Shown piece after piece: positions 38,259 to 59,554 of a stretch of 64,000 nt of DNA. The number at the start of each line of letters is the position of its first letter. Position 1 is the stretch's first letter. Where the stretch lies: the NCBI GenBank assembly GCA_006212045.1, contig PZPK01000011.1, positions 62,001 to 126,000 of the forward strand, read 5' to 3'. A program made the translations under genes and the position numbers. Source of the stretch: Oleiphilus sp. Its GTDB lineage: Bacteria > Pseudomonadota > Gammaproteobacteria > Pseudomonadales > Oleiphilaceae. Under the pieces are notes generated by a model. The model saw only the letters and a program-made list of their open reading frames with translations, ran no database searches and was not told where the DNA came from.

Positions 38259-39296
38259 GTGGCGGCCCATTTTAGTCGTAGTGCTTCACTGATGGGTTTT
38301 TTCGAATTGGTGGAAGAACTCGATGGTGATCCCCAGGATCTTTTGGCGAGTTGTGCGATACCTTCTGCATGGCTGGAAACCGATGACAATCTGATTCCTT
38401 CCGAAAAGCTGGCCGAGTTACTGGGGCGCTCTGCCAGTTCACTGGCGTGTGAGGACTTTGGCATGCGCCTGGCCCGCCTGCAGTCCCTGAGTATGCTGGG
38501 GCCAGTGGGGCTGCTGGTACAGCAATGCGAGACGCTCGGTGAGGCTTTGTCGCAACTGCAGCGTTTTCTATATATTCACTCACAGGCGGGATTGCTCCAG
38601 GTCGATACTCGCCAGGATACGTGTCTTGTCAGTTTCGCGCCTCTGGTGAGCTACGAAGGCCGTGATCGTCAGCTGATTGATCTGACCCTGATGGCAGGCC
38701 TGAGCATGTTGAGTGAGTTGGCACATCGCACCATCCCTCTGCAGCACGTCTATTTTTCCTATCGCCGACCAGACAATCTTGAACCTTACCGGCAAGTGTT
38801 CGGTTCCGGTGTGCAATTTGAAGCCGAAGTCAGTGGTGTTGCTCTACCAGCATCGGTATTGAACTGGCCGTTGAAGCCGGAGCGCGCCAGAATTCAGGCG
38901 CTGGTTCAACGTTATATTTCGAGCATTGAAGCCGCGCACCCGGCTCAGCTTGAAAGTCAGGTGAGGGCCCTGATTCGTCAGCTTCTGCCTTTGGGGCAAT
39001 GTCGACTGGCGCAATTGGCCAGCGTGTTGCAGCTCGAACCTCGTACCCTGCAACGCCGTTTATCCGAACGCGGCCTGCGTTACAGACAATTGCTGAGTGA
39101 GGAGAGGGCATTGCTTGCGCAGCGCTATCTGGATGAGTCCGAGGTGCAGTTGAGTCACCTGGCCGATCTACTCGGGTTCTCTGAGCAAAGCGTCTTTACT
39201 AACAGTTTCCGGCAATGGACAGGCAAATCTCCTACCCAATATCTGAAAGAACGAGGCAGACGTTTAAAGTTCAGGGCAGGGAAAGTACAGGTTTGA
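38259..39296 (+). CDS. AraC-family transcriptional regulator
   Basis: A 345-residue regulator with an N-terminal Arabinose_bd-like ligand domain (residues ~20-200) and a C-terminal double helix-turn-helix: LAQLASVLQLEPRTLQRRLSERG and LSHLADLLGFSEQSVFTNSFRQWTGKSPTQYLKER. The GTG at 38259 is chosen because AGGAGAGG lies directly upstream; a TTG at 38241 would add six residues. It is divergent from the amidohydrolase operon and shares with it a control region bearing direct repeats. It probably activates that operon on binding its inducer. Confidence 0.9.
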   Translation: MAAHFSRSASLMGFFELVEELDGDPQDLLASCAIPSAWLETDDNLIPSEKLAELLGRSASSLACEDFGMRLARLQSLSMLGPVGLLVQQCETLGEALSQLQRFLYIHSQAGLLQVDTRQDTCLVSFAPLVSYEGRDRQLIDLTLMAGLSMLSELAHRTIPLQHVYFSYRRPDNLEPYRQVFGSGVQFEAEVSGVALPASVLNWPLKPERARIQALVQRYISSIEAAHPAQLESQVRALIRQLLPLGQCRLAQLASVLQLEPRTLQRRLSERGLRYRQLLSEERALLAQRYLDESEVQLSHLADLLGFSEQSVFTNSFRQWTGKSPTQYLKERGRRLKFRAGKVQV

Positions 39297-52937: not shown

Positions 52938-53273
52938 CTGTGTGTCCTTACTTAATGCGATGTGCTTAGTATAACGCTTTTTGTGCGCTAAGACTTTCCC
53001 GGCATTTTTCTTCTTTCTGAGTGCGTTTCGTTGGCGCACTTTCGGTTACTGTGTGACTACGATATGAATCTGTTCAAACAGAGCGCGCTTTTTGTGCGTC
53101 TTTTATATCAGGGCTTTTTCCGTATCATTTTCGAGATGCCAGCCGGTAGGAGATAGCTCCCTGTTCTCTGGTTGGCTTGGCTCTTGCTATTACATCGGTA
53201 CGTTCATAAAAAACCACGATAAAACAACAGTTTATTTGTTCTTGCGCGCAAAGTTGGTGCATCAAAAAATTGT
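52938..53273. other. Intergenic region upstream of the molybdoenzyme operon
   Basis: About 336 bases without a gene. A 12-base near-palindrome CTGTT-CA-AACAG is centred near 53075. AT-rich DNA follows towards 53274. I found no convincing FNR, NarL or NtrC-type site and cannot place the promoter. Confidence 0.4.
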
Positions 53274-55514
53274 TTGAAAGTCACTATGACTCATTGTGGT
53301 GCGTCAGATAAGGGCTACCAGTTTATGCTTTTTGGTCGAAAAGACAGAAAACCGATTCGTATTGTTGAGAAAGAGATTGCGGAGTGGAAATACACCACTT
53401 GCGGTTATTGTTCTACCGGATGCTCCATTGAGGTGGGAGTGAACAATGAGGGGCGTGCCGTGGCGACTCGCGGGCACGCCGGCGCGGATGTTAACCGGGG
53501 AAAACTGTGTATCAAAGGGATTTTTGAGCACGAGCTGTTTGAGGCACCCGGGCGCGGTGATATGCCACTGATGCGCGACAAAACCTATCAGCCCTGGCAG
53601 GAGGCCGGCTGGGACACTGCGATGGACCACATGGCGTCCGAGATAAAGCGTATTCAGTCGACTTACGGGCGAGATTCTTTCGCGATTATTTCCACCGGAC
53701 AGCTGCTGACTGAAGAGTTTTATTCACTCGGAAAACTGGCGCGCGGTTGCATCGGCACCAACAACTATGACGGGAATACCACACTTTGCATGGCTTCCGC
53801 TGTGTCTGGCTACAAACGCTCTTTCGGTTCCGACGGACCTCCCGGGTGTTATGAGGACTTTGAGCATACAGAGTGTCTGATTGCCTGGGGCTCGAACCTC
53901 CCCGAACAGCACCCGATTATTTACTGGCGTTTGAAAGAGGCCATGGAGAAGCGCAAGTTTCCGTTGATCGTTGTCGACCCACGCGTGACCATGCTGGCAC
54001 AGTTTGCGGACATTCACTTGCCAGTCACACCGGGTACTGATGTCGTGCTGCTGAACAGTTTAATGCATGTCATCCTCGACGAGGGGCTGGAGGACAGAGA
54101 CTATATTAATGCGCATACCAATGGTATCGAGGAAGTGGAGGCATGCGTCAGGGATTACGACCCGACTACCGCCGCACGCATTTGCGGGATCGATGAAGAC
54201 ACCATTCGCGTAGTCGCGCGACTGTATGCCAAAGCCGGTGCTGCGATGAGCATTTGGACGATGGGGATTAACCAGAGTACGCACGGCTCGGATGGTGTGG
54301 TTGGCATCAATAATCTGAATCTGATTACCGGGAATATCGGCAAACCCGGTGGTACCAGCCTGTCGATTACCGGTCAGTGCAATGCCATGGGTACACGCGA
54401 GTGGTCTTCCTGCTCCGGATTGCCGGGTTATCGCGCGCTTGAAAAGCCCAAGGATCGCAAGGAGATCGCCGATTTCTGGGGAATTGACGAAAGCTTTTTT
54501 CCGGAGAAACGCGGGCTGACCGAAACGGATATCTTTCCGGCGATTGAAACCGGGCAGATCAAGGGCCTGTGGCTGGTGGCAACCAATCCAATCACTTCCA
54601 TGCCGCAGACATCCCGGATCAAGAAAACGCTGGAAAAACTGGACTTTCTGGTGGTTCAGGACGCCTACCAGGATGTCGAAAGTGCGCATTTTGCTCACCT
54701 CTACCTGCCAGCCGCTGTCTGGGCCGAAAAGGAAGGGGTGTTCACCAATACCGAACGCCGGGTCAATATTGTGCGACAGGTGGTCGAACCCATAGGCAAT
54801 ACCAAACCGGATTTCTGGATCTTCAAAGAACTGGCGAAACGTTTCCCGAATGGCGAGAAGATTCATTTTCCTGATACCCCGGCGGAAGCATTTGAGGAGA
54901 TGAAGCAACTCTCCAAAGGGGACAAGCGCACACTCGATATTTCGGGCATGAGCCATGAGAAAATCGAAGCCGCAAAGGGAATTCAATGGCCATTTCGCGA
55001 GGGCAGTGAATCTGAAAAAGGTGACCCACGACTCTACAGTGACGGTGTGTTCCAGACCGCCGATGGCAAGGCCAACCTGATTCCCTTGCCCTTCACCGAC
55101 AACAATGAGCGCCCTTGTGAGGACTATCCGTTCTGGCTGAACAGCGGCCGGGTGGTTGAGCACTTTCATACCCGCACACGCACCGGGAAAATCGGCAACT
55201 GCAACAAGTTCAGCCCAACGCCGTATATGGAAATGAATCCGGATGCGGCGAAGGAAATGGGCATTGCACACCAGAGTTATGTGCGGATCGTGTCGCGACG
55301 CGGCGACTCGGTCGTGATGGTGCAGCTGACACAGCGCGTGCCTCGCAACATGGTCTTCATTCCCTTTCATTTTTACGACTGCGTTAATCGCGTTTCTCTG
55401 GGACTGTTGGACCCGCATTCACGCCAGCCTGCTTTCAAGCAGTGTGCCATCAGAATTGAACATGTGGACCAGGAACTGGCCGCAACATTGAACGTAGAAA
55501 GAAGAGGTTACTAG
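53274..55514 (+). CDS. Cytoplasmic molybdopterin oxidoreductase (NasA/NarB-like)
   Basis: Catalytic subunit of 746 residues. The [4Fe-4S] motif TTCGYCSTGC begins near residue 42 with a later Cys in NRGKLCIKG, as in assimilatory nitrate reductases. NYDGNTTLCMASAVSGYKR near residue 165 carries the likely Mo-ligand Cys. INNLNLITGNIGKPGGT follows, and the C-terminal molybdopterin-guanine-dinucleotide domain is complete. There is no twin-arginine signal peptide, so it stays in the cytoplasm. The start is uncertain: TTG 53274, ATG 53286 or ATG 53325. It overlaps its partner within two bases (stop 55514, start 55516). Nitrate reduction is a guess; formate or another substrate is possible. Confidence 0.85.
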   Translation: MKVTMTHCGASDKGYQFMLFGRKDRKPIRIVEKEIAEWKYTTCGYCSTGCSIEVGVNNEGRAVATRGHAGADVNRGKLCIKGIFEHELFEAPGRGDMPLMRDKTYQPWQEAGWDTAMDHMASEIKRIQSTYGRDSFAIISTGQLLTEEFYSLGKLARGCIGTNNYDGNTTLCMASAVSGYKRSFGSDGPPGCYEDFEHTECLIAWGSNLPEQHPIIYWRLKEAMEKRKFPLIVVDPRVTMLAQFADIHLPVTPGTDVVLLNSLMHVILDEGLEDRDYINAHTNGIEEVEACVRDYDPTTAARICGIDEDTIRVVARLYAKAGAAMSIWTMGINQSTHGSDGVVGINNLNLITGNIGKPGGTSLSITGQCNAMGTREWSSCSGLPGYRALEKPKDRKEIADFWGIDESFFPEKRGLTETDIFPAIETGQIKGLWLVATNPITSMPQTSRIKKTLEKLDFLVVQDAYQDVESAHFAHLYLPAAVWAEKEGVFTNTERRVNIVRQVVEPIGNTKPDFWIFKELAKRFPNGEKIHFPDTPAEAFEEMKQLSKGDKRTLDISGMSHEKIEAAKGIQWPFREGSESEKGDPRLYSDGVFQTADGKANLIPLPFTDNNERPCEDYPFWLNSGRVVEHFHTRTRTGKIGNCNKFSPTPYMEMNPDAAKEMGIAHQSYVRIVSRRGDSVVMVQLTQRVPRNMVFIPFHFYDCVNRVSLGLLDPHSRQPAFKQCAIRIEHVDQELAATLNVERRGY

Positions 55515-55515
55515 G

Positions 55516-57432
55516 ATGTTGAGCATGTTGACCAAGGTACGTGACCGTCTGGATCAGATGGGCGTAGAGCCGAAGCCTGTGAATACCGAAGCGCGCCCCA
55601 TTTTCCCGACGCGCGAGGAAGAGCAGGGCTATGCCAAGTTGTTCGATCCCAAGGTCGAAGAGGCCAATCGTTATGGCCAGAAGATTGATTTGCTCGACCT
55701 GACCGAAGGGGCCTTCGATCCCGGTCGGTCCATGATGATCAACGAAAACCCCAGCGTTGGTGACAACCCGAATCGCAACAAGCAACATGGCTTTCACTTT
55801 ACGGCAGACAATTGTATCGGCTGTCATGCCTGTGAAGCCGCTTGTAGTGAAAAGAACGAGAATCCTGCGCATATTGCGTTCAGGTCGGTGGGTTATGTGG
55901 AAGGCGGAACGTATCCTGACTACAAGCGCATGAATATTTCCATGGCCTGTAATCACTGTGATGACCCGGTTTGCCTGAAAGGCTGTCCCACCAAAGCCTA
56001 TACCAAGCATGTTGAGTACGGTGCCGTGTTGCAGGACCCTGAAACCTGCTTTGGTTGTGGCTACTGCACATGGGTTTGTCCCTATAATGCGCCACAGCTG
56101 GACCCGATCGAAGGGCAGGTGTCCAAATGCAACATGTGTGTAGACCGGCTTGAAGTCGGTCTCAAGCCCGCTTGTGTTTCAGCCTGTTTGGGGAACGCAT
56201 TAAACTTCGGGGTGATCGAGAACACGCCGGAAAACCGGGAGCAAGTGGAAACTCAAATTCCCGGATTTCCCGATCCATCCATTACGCACCCTAATATTCG
56301 TTTCCAGCAAACCAAGACCCTGCCGGAAGAAATGACGCGTACTGACGTAGCCCCGTTGAAGTATCACAAAACCGAGGATGGCAGTTATCGTTCGGTGGTT
56401 GATGAGAAGGCCGGTATCGCGCGCTCCTGGAATCTGAAGCGGCTCAGTTCACGTGAGAACCCGTTGGTCATCTTTACGCTGGCGACTCAGGCGGTGATTG
56501 GTGCCTTTGCCCTGTTGTTTTTGGGGCCGGTGTTTGCTCCTGAAGCCTTTGGCGGTTTGGAACGTTCCGGGGTGACGTATCCATTGCTGTTCACTCTGAT
56601 CTTTCTGCAGGGCGGCGGATTATTTCTTTCGACCTTGCACCTCGGTAAGCCAATGCGTTTTTATCGCGGTTTCAATAATCTTCGCTGGTCACCGGTTAGT
56701 CGTGAAGCGCTGGGTATTGCGATGTTCTTTGCCGGCCTGTGCGGCTATACCTTTGTGAGTCTGGTGAACGAGTGGTTGCAATGGAGCATGCTGTCAGCCC
56801 TGGCCGATTTTGCTGCGGTCTTTGCCCTGGTTGCCGCGGTGATAGGCTTGTACTTCATGCACCGTATTTATCGCATTAAGGCACGTCCATTCTGGAATCA
56901 CTGGCAGGTGTTGACCAGCTTCTTCGGTACCACTTTGAGTGCCGGCGGAATGTTGTTCGGTTTATTCGCCGCTGCGGCCTATGGACTCACCGGGCAACAT
57001 GTGGCCAGCCTGATCTCACTGGTGGCGGGTGTCGCGCTGCTTGGTTTGCTGGCAGAGGGCCTTGGTCTGATCTGTCACGCTAAATATCTCAATACCGAAC
57101 AGGGTGAAGGGGCAGCAGCACACTATGTGCAGTGGACCACCTTTGGTAAGACCTATCTGGCGCGCAATATGATGCTTGGCTTCTCGGCCTTGCTGGCACT
57201 GACCCTGTTCCTCTGGGAGCCAAATAGCTGGTTGATGGCCACAGTTGCGGTGCTGACCTGCCTGCTGATGACGGCGGCTCTGGTCGCGGGTCGGGCCCTG
57301 TTCTATGTGCTGGTTATTCCCACAACCATGCCGGGTGCGTTCTTCTGGAAGAACAAGGGGTTTGAAGAACACGCGCGCGATGTGGGGCTTGCGAACATGC
57401 CGCAAGTGGGTGTGGTGCCTGATTTACATTGA
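55516..57432 (+). CDS. Fused DmsB-DmsC type iron-sulfur/membrane anchor subunit
   Basis: A 638-residue electron-transfer protein. Residues ~95-235 hold four [4Fe-4S] cysteine sets: CIGCHACEAAC, CNHCDDPVCLKGC, CFGCGYCTWVC and CNMCVDRLE with a later CVSAC. From residue ~315 on, about eight membrane segments form a DmsC-like quinone-reactive anchor. Normally these are two proteins; here they are fused. It directly follows the molybdoenzyme gene, suggesting that quinol electrons flow through this protein to the cytoplasmic active site, or the reverse. Complex formation is inferred from the gene pair. Confidence 0.88.
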   Translation: MLSMLTKVRDRLDQMGVEPKPVNTEARPIFPTREEEQGYAKLFDPKVEEANRYGQKIDLLDLTEGAFDPGRSMMINENPSVGDNPNRNKQHGFHFTADNCIGCHACEAACSEKNENPAHIAFRSVGYVEGGTYPDYKRMNISMACNHCDDPVCLKGCPTKAYTKHVEYGAVLQDPETCFGCGYCTWVCPYNAPQLDPIEGQVSKCNMCVDRLEVGLKPACVSACLGNALNFGVIENTPENREQVETQIPGFPDPSITHPNIRFQQTKTLPEEMTRTDVAPLKYHKTEDGSYRSVVDEKAGIARSWNLKRLSSRENPLVIFTLATQAVIGAFALLFLGPVFAPEAFGGLERSGVTYPLLFTLIFLQGGGLFLSTLHLGKPMRFYRGFNNLRWSPVSREALGIAMFFAGLCGYTFVSLVNEWLQWSMLSALADFAAVFALVAAVIGLYFMHRIYRIKARPFWNHWQVLTSFFGTTLSAGGMLFGLFAAAAYGLTGQHVASLISLVAGVALLGLLAEGLGLICHAKYLNTEQGEGAAAHYVQWTTFGKTYLARNMMLGFSALLALTLFLWEPNSWLMATVAVLTCLLMTAALVAGRALFYVLVIPTTMPGAFFWKNKGFEEHARDVGLANMPQVGVVPDLH

Positions 57433-58885: not shown

Positions 58886-59554
58886 CTATGCAGGCAGTGG
58901 CCAGCCACCCAGATGTCGCCATTTGTTGTAAATTCGGCAGAATAGCTCGGCTGTTTTTTCGGTGTCGTACTTGGCCGAATGTGCCGAATTACCGTCAAAG
59001 TCTATGCCAGCCTGGGCACAGGCTTTGGCAAGCACGGTCTGGCCATAGGCCAGCGCGGATAGGGTCGCTGTGTCGAAGCTGGAAAACGGATGAAAGGGGT
59101 TGCGCTTGATGCCGGTGCGCTCGGCCGCAGCAAATACGAAGCCGTGGTCGAATGAGGCATTATGTCCGACCAGAATGGCGCGGGTGCATTGTGTTTCCTT
59201 GACCGCCTTGCGAATCGGGGTGAAGATCTTATCCAGCGCCAGTTTTTCAGGTTGGGCATTGCGAAACGGGCTATGCGGGTCGATGCCGGTAAATTCCAGT
59301 GCCGATTTTTCCATATTGGCACCACGGAAAGGTTCTACATTGCAGTGCACGGTTTCCTTGGCAAACAGGTCGCCGTCCTTTTTCATACCGATAATCACCG
59401 CGGCAATTTCGAGCAGGGCATCGGTTTGAGAATTGAAACCAGCCGTTTCCACATCTACCACGACAGGCAGGTAGCCTCGAAAGCGCTGGTTCATGGCGTG
59501 GGAATTGCTACTGACGGTAGTATCGAAGTTTTGGTGGTCACTTGAATCGGGCAC
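58886..59554 (-). CDS. rnt: Ribonuclease T
   Basis: A 222-residue DEDD exonuclease that trims the 3' ends of tRNA and other stable RNAs. Exo[24 protein letters not shown] holds the Asp-Glu pair, ExoII is [11 protein letters not shown], and the ExoIII region [17 protein letters not shown] holds the last Asp. The GTG at 59554 follows AAGGA. It is divergent from motY, as in Pseudomonas, where pyrC sits between them; pyrC is absent here. Confidence 0.95.

Follow-up and report, generated by a model that had tools for sequence, protein, structure and literature searches.

We analyzed a 64,000-nucleotide stretch of DNA, the window, from the gammaproteobacterium Oleiphilus sp. (GenBank assembly GCA_006212045.1, contig PZPK01000011.1, positions 62,001 to 126,000 of the forward strand). 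It carries a molybdoenzyme gene, here called A, followed at once by the gene for a fused electron-transfer and membrane anchor protein, here called BC. The unusual feature of A-BC is that a catalytic subunit of the Nas type is paired with a module of the DmsBC type. Positions below are those of the window, and the features of the pair are as follows.

53325..55514, + strand: catalytic subunit A, a Nas/Nap-type enzyme with a molybdenum-bis(pyranopterin guanine dinucleotide) (Mo-bisPGD) center; 729 amino acids from the ATG at 53325 (Pfam, invariant Met18, tree, motifs)
55516..57432, + strand: fused electron-transfer and anchor subunit BC, 638 amino acids (Pfam, invariant cysteines, position next to A)
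55783..56223, + strand: DmsB-like four-[4Fe-4S] domain of BC, residues 90-236 (TIGR02951, 16 invariant cysteines)
56455..57312, + strand: DmsC/NrfD-type anchor domain of BC, residues 314-599 (PF04976, profile alignment, structural model, Foldseek)

The A and BC genes and their pairing

The open reading frame listed for A spans 53274-55514 on the + strand, with a longer start at TTG 53274. Met18 of this frame does not vary among 24 aligned sequences, which makes ATG 53325 the more probable start of the gene. Pfam identified the Molybdop_Fe4S4, Molybdopterin, and Molydop_binding domains in A, each above its gathering score. Inspection by eye, made with no signal predictor, showed neither a twin-arginine motif nor a hydrophobic N-terminal stretch in A, and the same inspection showed no export signal in BC. 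The first-pass annotation had described A as a NasA/NarB-like subunit lacking a twin-arginine translocation signal, and the Pfam domains, the tree described below, and this inspection agree with it. Several curated NCBIfam models scored A below their cut-offs: NasC (509 bits, cut-off 1100), the haloarchaeal NasA (472 of 1000), DmsA (138 of 778), and narG (42 of 1084). The 887-residue NasA of locus L082 is likewise under the NasC and haloarchaeal NasA cut-offs (457 and 388 bits, respectively). Only 17-18 residues follow the dinucleotide-binding domain in A, versus 186-193 residues with 6-8 cysteines in gammaproteobacterial NasA. Since A lacks this C-terminal cysteine-rich part, it would need a partner.

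BC begins after a single intergenic base (55515), where a gap of two bases had been reported. The earlier description of one protein combining four [4Fe-4S] motifs with a DmsC-like anchor is borne out. Fer4_11 was found by Pfam on residues 141-233, and TIGR02951 scored the DmsB-like part at 157 bits, below its cut-off of 214. The four sets of cluster cysteines (C100/103/106/110, C145/148/153/157, C178/181/184/188, and C205/208/220/224) are all invariant in the 36 aligned sequences. DmsC (PF04976) matched residues 314-599 with 70 bits, against a cut-off of 22, and the BC profile aligned to residues 6-283 of Escherichia coli DmsC with 79.7 bits. In this alignment the BC residues H375 and E397, both invariant in the 36 sequences, correspond to DmsC H65 and E87. 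Glu87 is named in the title of a paper on menaquinol binding cited by PMC13059093. Substitution of DmsC His65 blocks quinol oxidation (PMC8076601).

An AlphaFold model of BC had eight long helices in the anchor region, with a mean predicted local distance difference test score (pLDDT) of 60.5 overall. The pLDDT of residues 59-269 was below 50, and we therefore make no structural claim for the N-terminal half. Weak Foldseek matches to the model included chain C of alternative complex III (ranks 1 and 4) and PsrC (rank 5). With its eight helices, the histidine in transmembrane helix 2, and the quinone-site glutamate, the C-terminal half of BC fits the NrfD/DmsC superfamily.

We counted lysine and arginine residues in the segments between the helices of the 36 BC sequences, and set the loop borders by scanning the hydropathy of the window protein. 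The side bearing the N-terminus had a mean of 20.2 and the opposite side 1.0, with the N-terminal side higher in all 36; with the inner loops alone, the means were 10.8 and 1.0. E. coli DmsC has its N-terminus outside, and the same count on it agreed with this topology, favoring the opposite loops by 8 to 4. BC is thus inverted relative to E. coli DmsC, with the N-terminus cytoplasmic, as is expected for SoeC. The first-pass annotation had already placed the quinone-type module facing the cytoplasm, in keeping with this charge bias.

Among 126 fetched loci with an A ortholog (tblastn identity above 55%; some contigs were common to both genome sets, so the loci are not independent), BC lies within 700 bases after A on the same strand in 123. 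The pairing is not due to chance. Two of the exceptions, L128 and L195, end about 200 bases past A, and the third, L185, has a BC gene that falls outside this rule. In genome G015, A stands beside nirB on one contig and BC is on another.

A near full-length BC relative (E < 1e-190) was present in 46 of 274 genomes drawn evenly across the class, which its named relatives identify as the Gammaproteobacteria; the source genome is included in both numbers. Weaker matches, of 164 bits and less, were left out of this count; judging by length, they look like B-type proteins or like separate B and C genes side by side. A draw across the phylum contained a BC relative (E < 1e-120) in 6 of 398 genomes, again including the source genome, and two of the six lie outside the class. 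Searching named genomes with the A alignment gave at least 577 confirmed relatives. The best 80 of these have 72-84% identity and include Shewanella, Colwellia, Photobacterium, Moritella, Methylophaga, Rhodoferax, Aquabacterium, Ketobacter, and many uncultured Gammaproteobacteria. Among plasmid records, 788 matched A, none with 60% identity or more.

Phylogenetic position and catalytic motifs of A

A first phylogenetic tree of 39 rows contained long branches. For a more careful tree of 32 proteins we removed three long rows (a second molybdopterin oxidoreductase of the source genome, from contig 34, DmsA, and a YdeP-like protein from Thermus) and four redundant ones, keeping FdnG as the outgroup. 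A was placed identically in both, with better support in the second, to which the values here refer. Reference labels in the tree are the annotations of the records, except that unannotated records and some genomes were labeled by similarity. The 12 A rows formed one clade (support 100/100) within a group of Nas and Nap proteins (98/96), where it was nested more deeply than the Nas of Paenibacillus (99/94). The five formate dehydrogenase rows formed a separate clade (99/95). The phylogeny that the first-pass annotation had proposed thus places A within Nas and Nap and apart from the formate dehydrogenases. That annotation had named, as counting against its reading, a grouping of A with a characterized enzyme of known complex and electron donor; A instead forms a clade of its own, about 33-38% identical to gammaproteobacterial NasA.

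The key residues of A are C43, C46, C50, and C79, the pair C172-M173, and R375. The Cys-Met pair is common to all Nas and Nap rows except that of Streptomyces, and A also carries the motif T-G-Q-C/S-N-A-M-G-T-R-E. The formate dehydrogenase rows have Cys or Sec followed by His, or Cys-Gln in one reference, together with R-G-Q/H-N-N-V-Q-G. In a comparison with these rows, neither the Cys/Sec-His pair nor the R-G-Q/H-N-N-V-Q-G motif was found in A.

These results bear on whether A-BC might be a cytoplasm-facing formate:quinone oxidoreductase. Formate dehydrogenases head the matches of A among PDB sequences, and Fdh-alpha is its top NCBIfam model, with 574 bits. That score is below the Fdh-alpha cut-off of 666, A falls with Nas and Nap in the tree, the formate dehydrogenase motifs are absent, and the neighborhood described below contains nirBD. 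Despite the best model and PDB scores, we rejected A as a formate dehydrogenase from the tree and motifs, and formate as the substrate of A-BC is very improbable.

Genomic context and sigma-54-like promoters

In many relatives the genes are arranged nirB-nirD-A-BC. NirB is encoded upstream of A, on the same strand and within 3 kb, in 64 of the 126 loci. Near A-BC, representatives of NirB, NirD, and a NarK-family transporter passed NCBIfam cut-offs. A protein of the Ser/Thr kinase-phosphatase type, scoring under the cut-offs, is frequent there as well. Across the class draw, 43 of the 46 BC-bearing genomes encode NirB, as do 81 of the 228 that lack BC (Fisher p 5e-14, in a test that ignores kinship, the draw holding mostly one or two genomes per family). 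The three BC genomes with no NirB call are G101, which has a NirB fragment at a contig end in locus L081, G187, which is 86% complete, and G238, which is 55% complete.

We surveyed other nitrate reductases in 53 A-BC genomes, comprising the 46 of the class draw and 7 relatives. NasA, called at 50% identity or more to the L082 NasA, also occurs in 19 of the 53, and we therefore rejected the idea that A-BC generally takes its place. NarG was present in 5 and NapA above its cut-off in 22, plus one NapA fragment. None of the three was found in 18 of the 53 genomes, 15 of which are in the class set. NirB is present in 14 of these 15, the fifteenth being the incomplete G238. In such genomes A-BC is the sole recognized nitrate reductase beside NirBD, which makes it the natural choice for the first step.

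In the source genome, NirB and NirD, each above its curated cut-off, are encoded on contig 78 with the kinase-phosphatase protein. Contig 12 carries a nitrate (Nrt)-type ATP-binding cassette ATPase above its cut-off, a permease at 163 bits (cut-off 209), and an NMT1-type binding protein, as well as an ANTAR response regulator and a NarK-family transporter. The genome has two NarK-family proteins above the cut-off, and MoaA and MoaB are encoded on contig 65 with NarG. The moa genes that the first-pass annotation had suggested looking for are therefore present, as are candidate nitrate transporters. Five molybdopterin oxidoreductases were identified in the source genome: NarG, A, and three others. 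No NasA or NapA was found among them.

A sigma-54-like element precedes A in the window.

53173..53188, + strand: sigma-54-like -24/-12 element, TGGCTTGGCTCTTGCT; 10 of 12 consensus positions, about 137 nucleotides before ATG 53325

We scanned for such elements within about 400 bases upstream with a sigma-54 consensus, scoring 12 informative positions and requiring the GG and GC. Four duplicates were removed, and loci with fewer than 450 bases upstream were left out. Upstream of nirB, sites matching at least 10 of 12 positions occurred in 48 of 54 nirB-led operons, compared with 76 of 2700 shuffled sequences. Upstream of A genes with no called NirB, a set that includes some loci whose NirB is truncated at a contig end or more than 3 kb away, the same threshold gave 21 of 60 regions and 52 of 3000 shuffles; at 9 of 12 or better, it was 40 of 60 regions, 249 of 3000 shuffles, and 12 of 60 on the reverse strand. 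A relaxed sigma-54 pattern matches the window at two further places, 39016-39031 and 59494-59509. This makes three matches in the window against 0.53 expected, a number reached in 1 of 100 shuffles.

Two other kinds of gene recur downstream of BC. RavA-like genes, ViaA-like genes, or both lie 3' of BC in L067, L070, L084, L088, L111, L152, L164, L169, L171, and other loci. The RavA and ViaA representatives are both under their NCBIfam cut-offs, and these proteins may help in assembling the complex. A gene of the TusE/DsrC sulfur-carrier family is found near BC, downstream, in L068, L074, L079, L093, L095, L104, L105, and others. The L105 copy is above the TIGR03342 cut-off, and there is no obvious reason for such a gene in a nitrate operon.

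Proposed role and comparison with known systems

We consider it likely that A-BC is a cytoplasmic quinol:nitrate oxidoreductase serving nitrate assimilation, with nitrate and quinol as the presumed substrate and donor. The substrate had earlier been given as unknown; the phylogeny, the nirBD and NarK context, and the sigma-54-like promoters point to nitrate for assimilation. In the proposed scheme, nitrate would enter through NarK- and Nrt-type transporters, and quinol would be oxidized on the cytoplasmic side in the DmsC-type half of BC. Assuming that A assembles with BC, electrons would pass through the four [4Fe-4S] clusters of BC, then through the N-terminal cluster in A, and reach the Mo-bisPGD center, where A, working in the reductive direction, would convert nitrate to nitrite. 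NirBD would then reduce nitrite to ammonium. Nitrogen control of expression, acting through sigma-54, is probable. An enzyme fed by quinol would save NAD(P)H or ferredoxin. Quinol oxidation and nitrate reduction would both take place on the cytoplasmic side, so no proton-motive force is expected from the reaction.

Several points weigh against this proposal. The branch leading to A is long (0.93), Nas is not a single clade in the tree, and the tree lacks AioA and SoeA. The Fdh-alpha model outscores NasC on A. Foldseek returned no match to the BC model with E < 0.001, the top matches ranging from 1.4e-3 to 2.3e-2, and ranks 2 and 3 were cytochrome bd subunits. NasA, where it co-occurs, stands beside A-BC in several loci. 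In the source genome A-BC stands alone with nirB on another contig, no nirB being found in the fetched stretch from about 7 kb before A to about 8 kb after BC, and the genome's own NarG could supply nitrite. The promoter signal is weaker at A itself (the 21 of 60 regions compare with 5 of 60 on the reverse strand), and 8 of 61 A regions, counted before duplicate removal, have no site or none scoring above 7 (L072, L120, L122, L137, L146, L171, L188, and L194). Lastly, we found no assayed A-BC member in the open PubMed Central (PMC) literature.

The same quinol-driven nitrate reduction could instead serve mainly redox balance, or an anaerobic conversion of nitrate to ammonium with NirBD. Respiratory enzymes are typically coupled to quinol, NirBD functions in assimilatory and dissimilatory routes alike (PMC12830290), and the survey found NapA in 22 and NarG in 5 of the 53 carriers. 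On the other side, the sigma-54-like promoters and the ANTAR and Nrt-type genes of the source genome fit nitrogen control, and with its quinone site expected on the cytoplasmic side the enzyme would conserve no energy. We regard this use as unlikely.

The enzymes NasA, NasC, and NarB are soluble and receive electrons from an NADH flavoprotein or ferredoxin. A resembles them in belonging to the same catalytic radiation, in its Cys-Met motif, in showing no export signal, and in its nirBD/NarK neighborhood, but it lacks the C-terminal cysteine-rich tail and has the fused four-cluster and anchor protein as its partner. The two halves of BC are related to DmsB and DmsC of E. coli and keep the quinol residues. 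The E. coli subunits are separate, whereas BC is fused and, by charge, has the opposite membrane orientation; DmsA is exported. Mycobacterium tuberculosis reportedly uses NarGHI for nitrate assimilation together with NirBD. NarGHI is, like the proposed A-BC complex, a cytoplasm-facing membrane-bound nitrate reductase (PMC7759655), but NarG belongs to a different family from A.

A-BC has the same layout as SoeABC, which is predicted to be cytoplasm-facing and quinone-linked, with a MopB catalytic subunit, a four-cluster subunit, and an inverted NrfD-type anchor that has the His65 and Glu87 counterparts (PMC8076601). SoeABC differs in oxidizing sulfite, in having B and C as separate subunits, and in its catalytic lineage, SoeA clustering with bSreA while Nas, Nap, and formate dehydrogenases make up another clade (Wells 2023, PMC10100899). 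The shared layout and expected orientation, along with the TusE/DsrC-family gene downstream in some loci, raise the question of whether A-BC acts on another small oxyanion, such as sulfite, as in SoeABC, or nitrite, with the nirBD link serving that reaction. The nitrate-type motif of A and its position within Nas and Nap (in a tree lacking SoeA), as well as the separate lineage of SoeA, make this improbable.

Precedents for an assimilatory quinol:nitrate oxidoreductase thus exist in SoeABC as regards orientation, in NarGHI as a membrane nitrate reductase that faces the cytoplasm, and in NasA as regards catalysis and physiology. The first-pass annotation had called the system distinctive. This holds for the combination of a Nas-type subunit with a DmsBC-type module and does not hold for a cytoplasm-facing, quinone-linked molybdoenzyme as such, for which NarGHI and, by prediction, SoeABC are precedents. 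According to Wells 2020 (PMC7331816), canonical four-cluster or membrane anchor subunits accompany no member of the clade that comprises NasA/NasC, AioA, NapA, and one lineage of formate dehydrogenases. The A-BC pair contradicts this generalization. We found no description of the pair in the open PMC literature as far as its text was available; it may have been mentioned earlier under the plain name nasA, as could be the case for the nasA-nirBD clusters of Zetaproteobacteria (PMC8114936). The evidence leans toward A-BC being a further architectural class of prokaryotic nitrate reductase in addition to Nar, Nap, and soluble Nas, one with cytoplasmic Nas-type catalysis fed by quinol through an inverted, fused DmsB-DmsC protein, and toward its being the main assimilatory enzyme of many Gammaproteobacteria, drawing on the quinone pool and not on NADPH or ferredoxin.

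Nitrate assimilation is a main route of nitrogen into aquatic biomass, and A-BC is carried by many water-living bacteria. If quinol is indeed the electron source, the energy cost and redox balance of growth on nitrate would have to be modeled differently for the carriers. Homology surveys that count nasA or dmsABC may misread the A-BC genes.

Two other loci of the source genome encode further redox proteins. The contig 34 molybdopterin oxidoreductase that was removed from the tree (L117:7458-9584) has 709 amino acids, passes no NCBIfam cut-off, and has a very long branch; by eye, its neighbor resembles a carbonic anhydrase. On contig 1 (L215:5699-11492) there is a 694-residue flavoprotein like the front half of NirB, with a BFD-like domain and a weak C-terminal match to DUF4405. 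It lies in a redox cluster with a multiheme cytochrome, a Tll0287-like protein, a small cytochrome c, a truncated globin, and a ferredoxin reductase.

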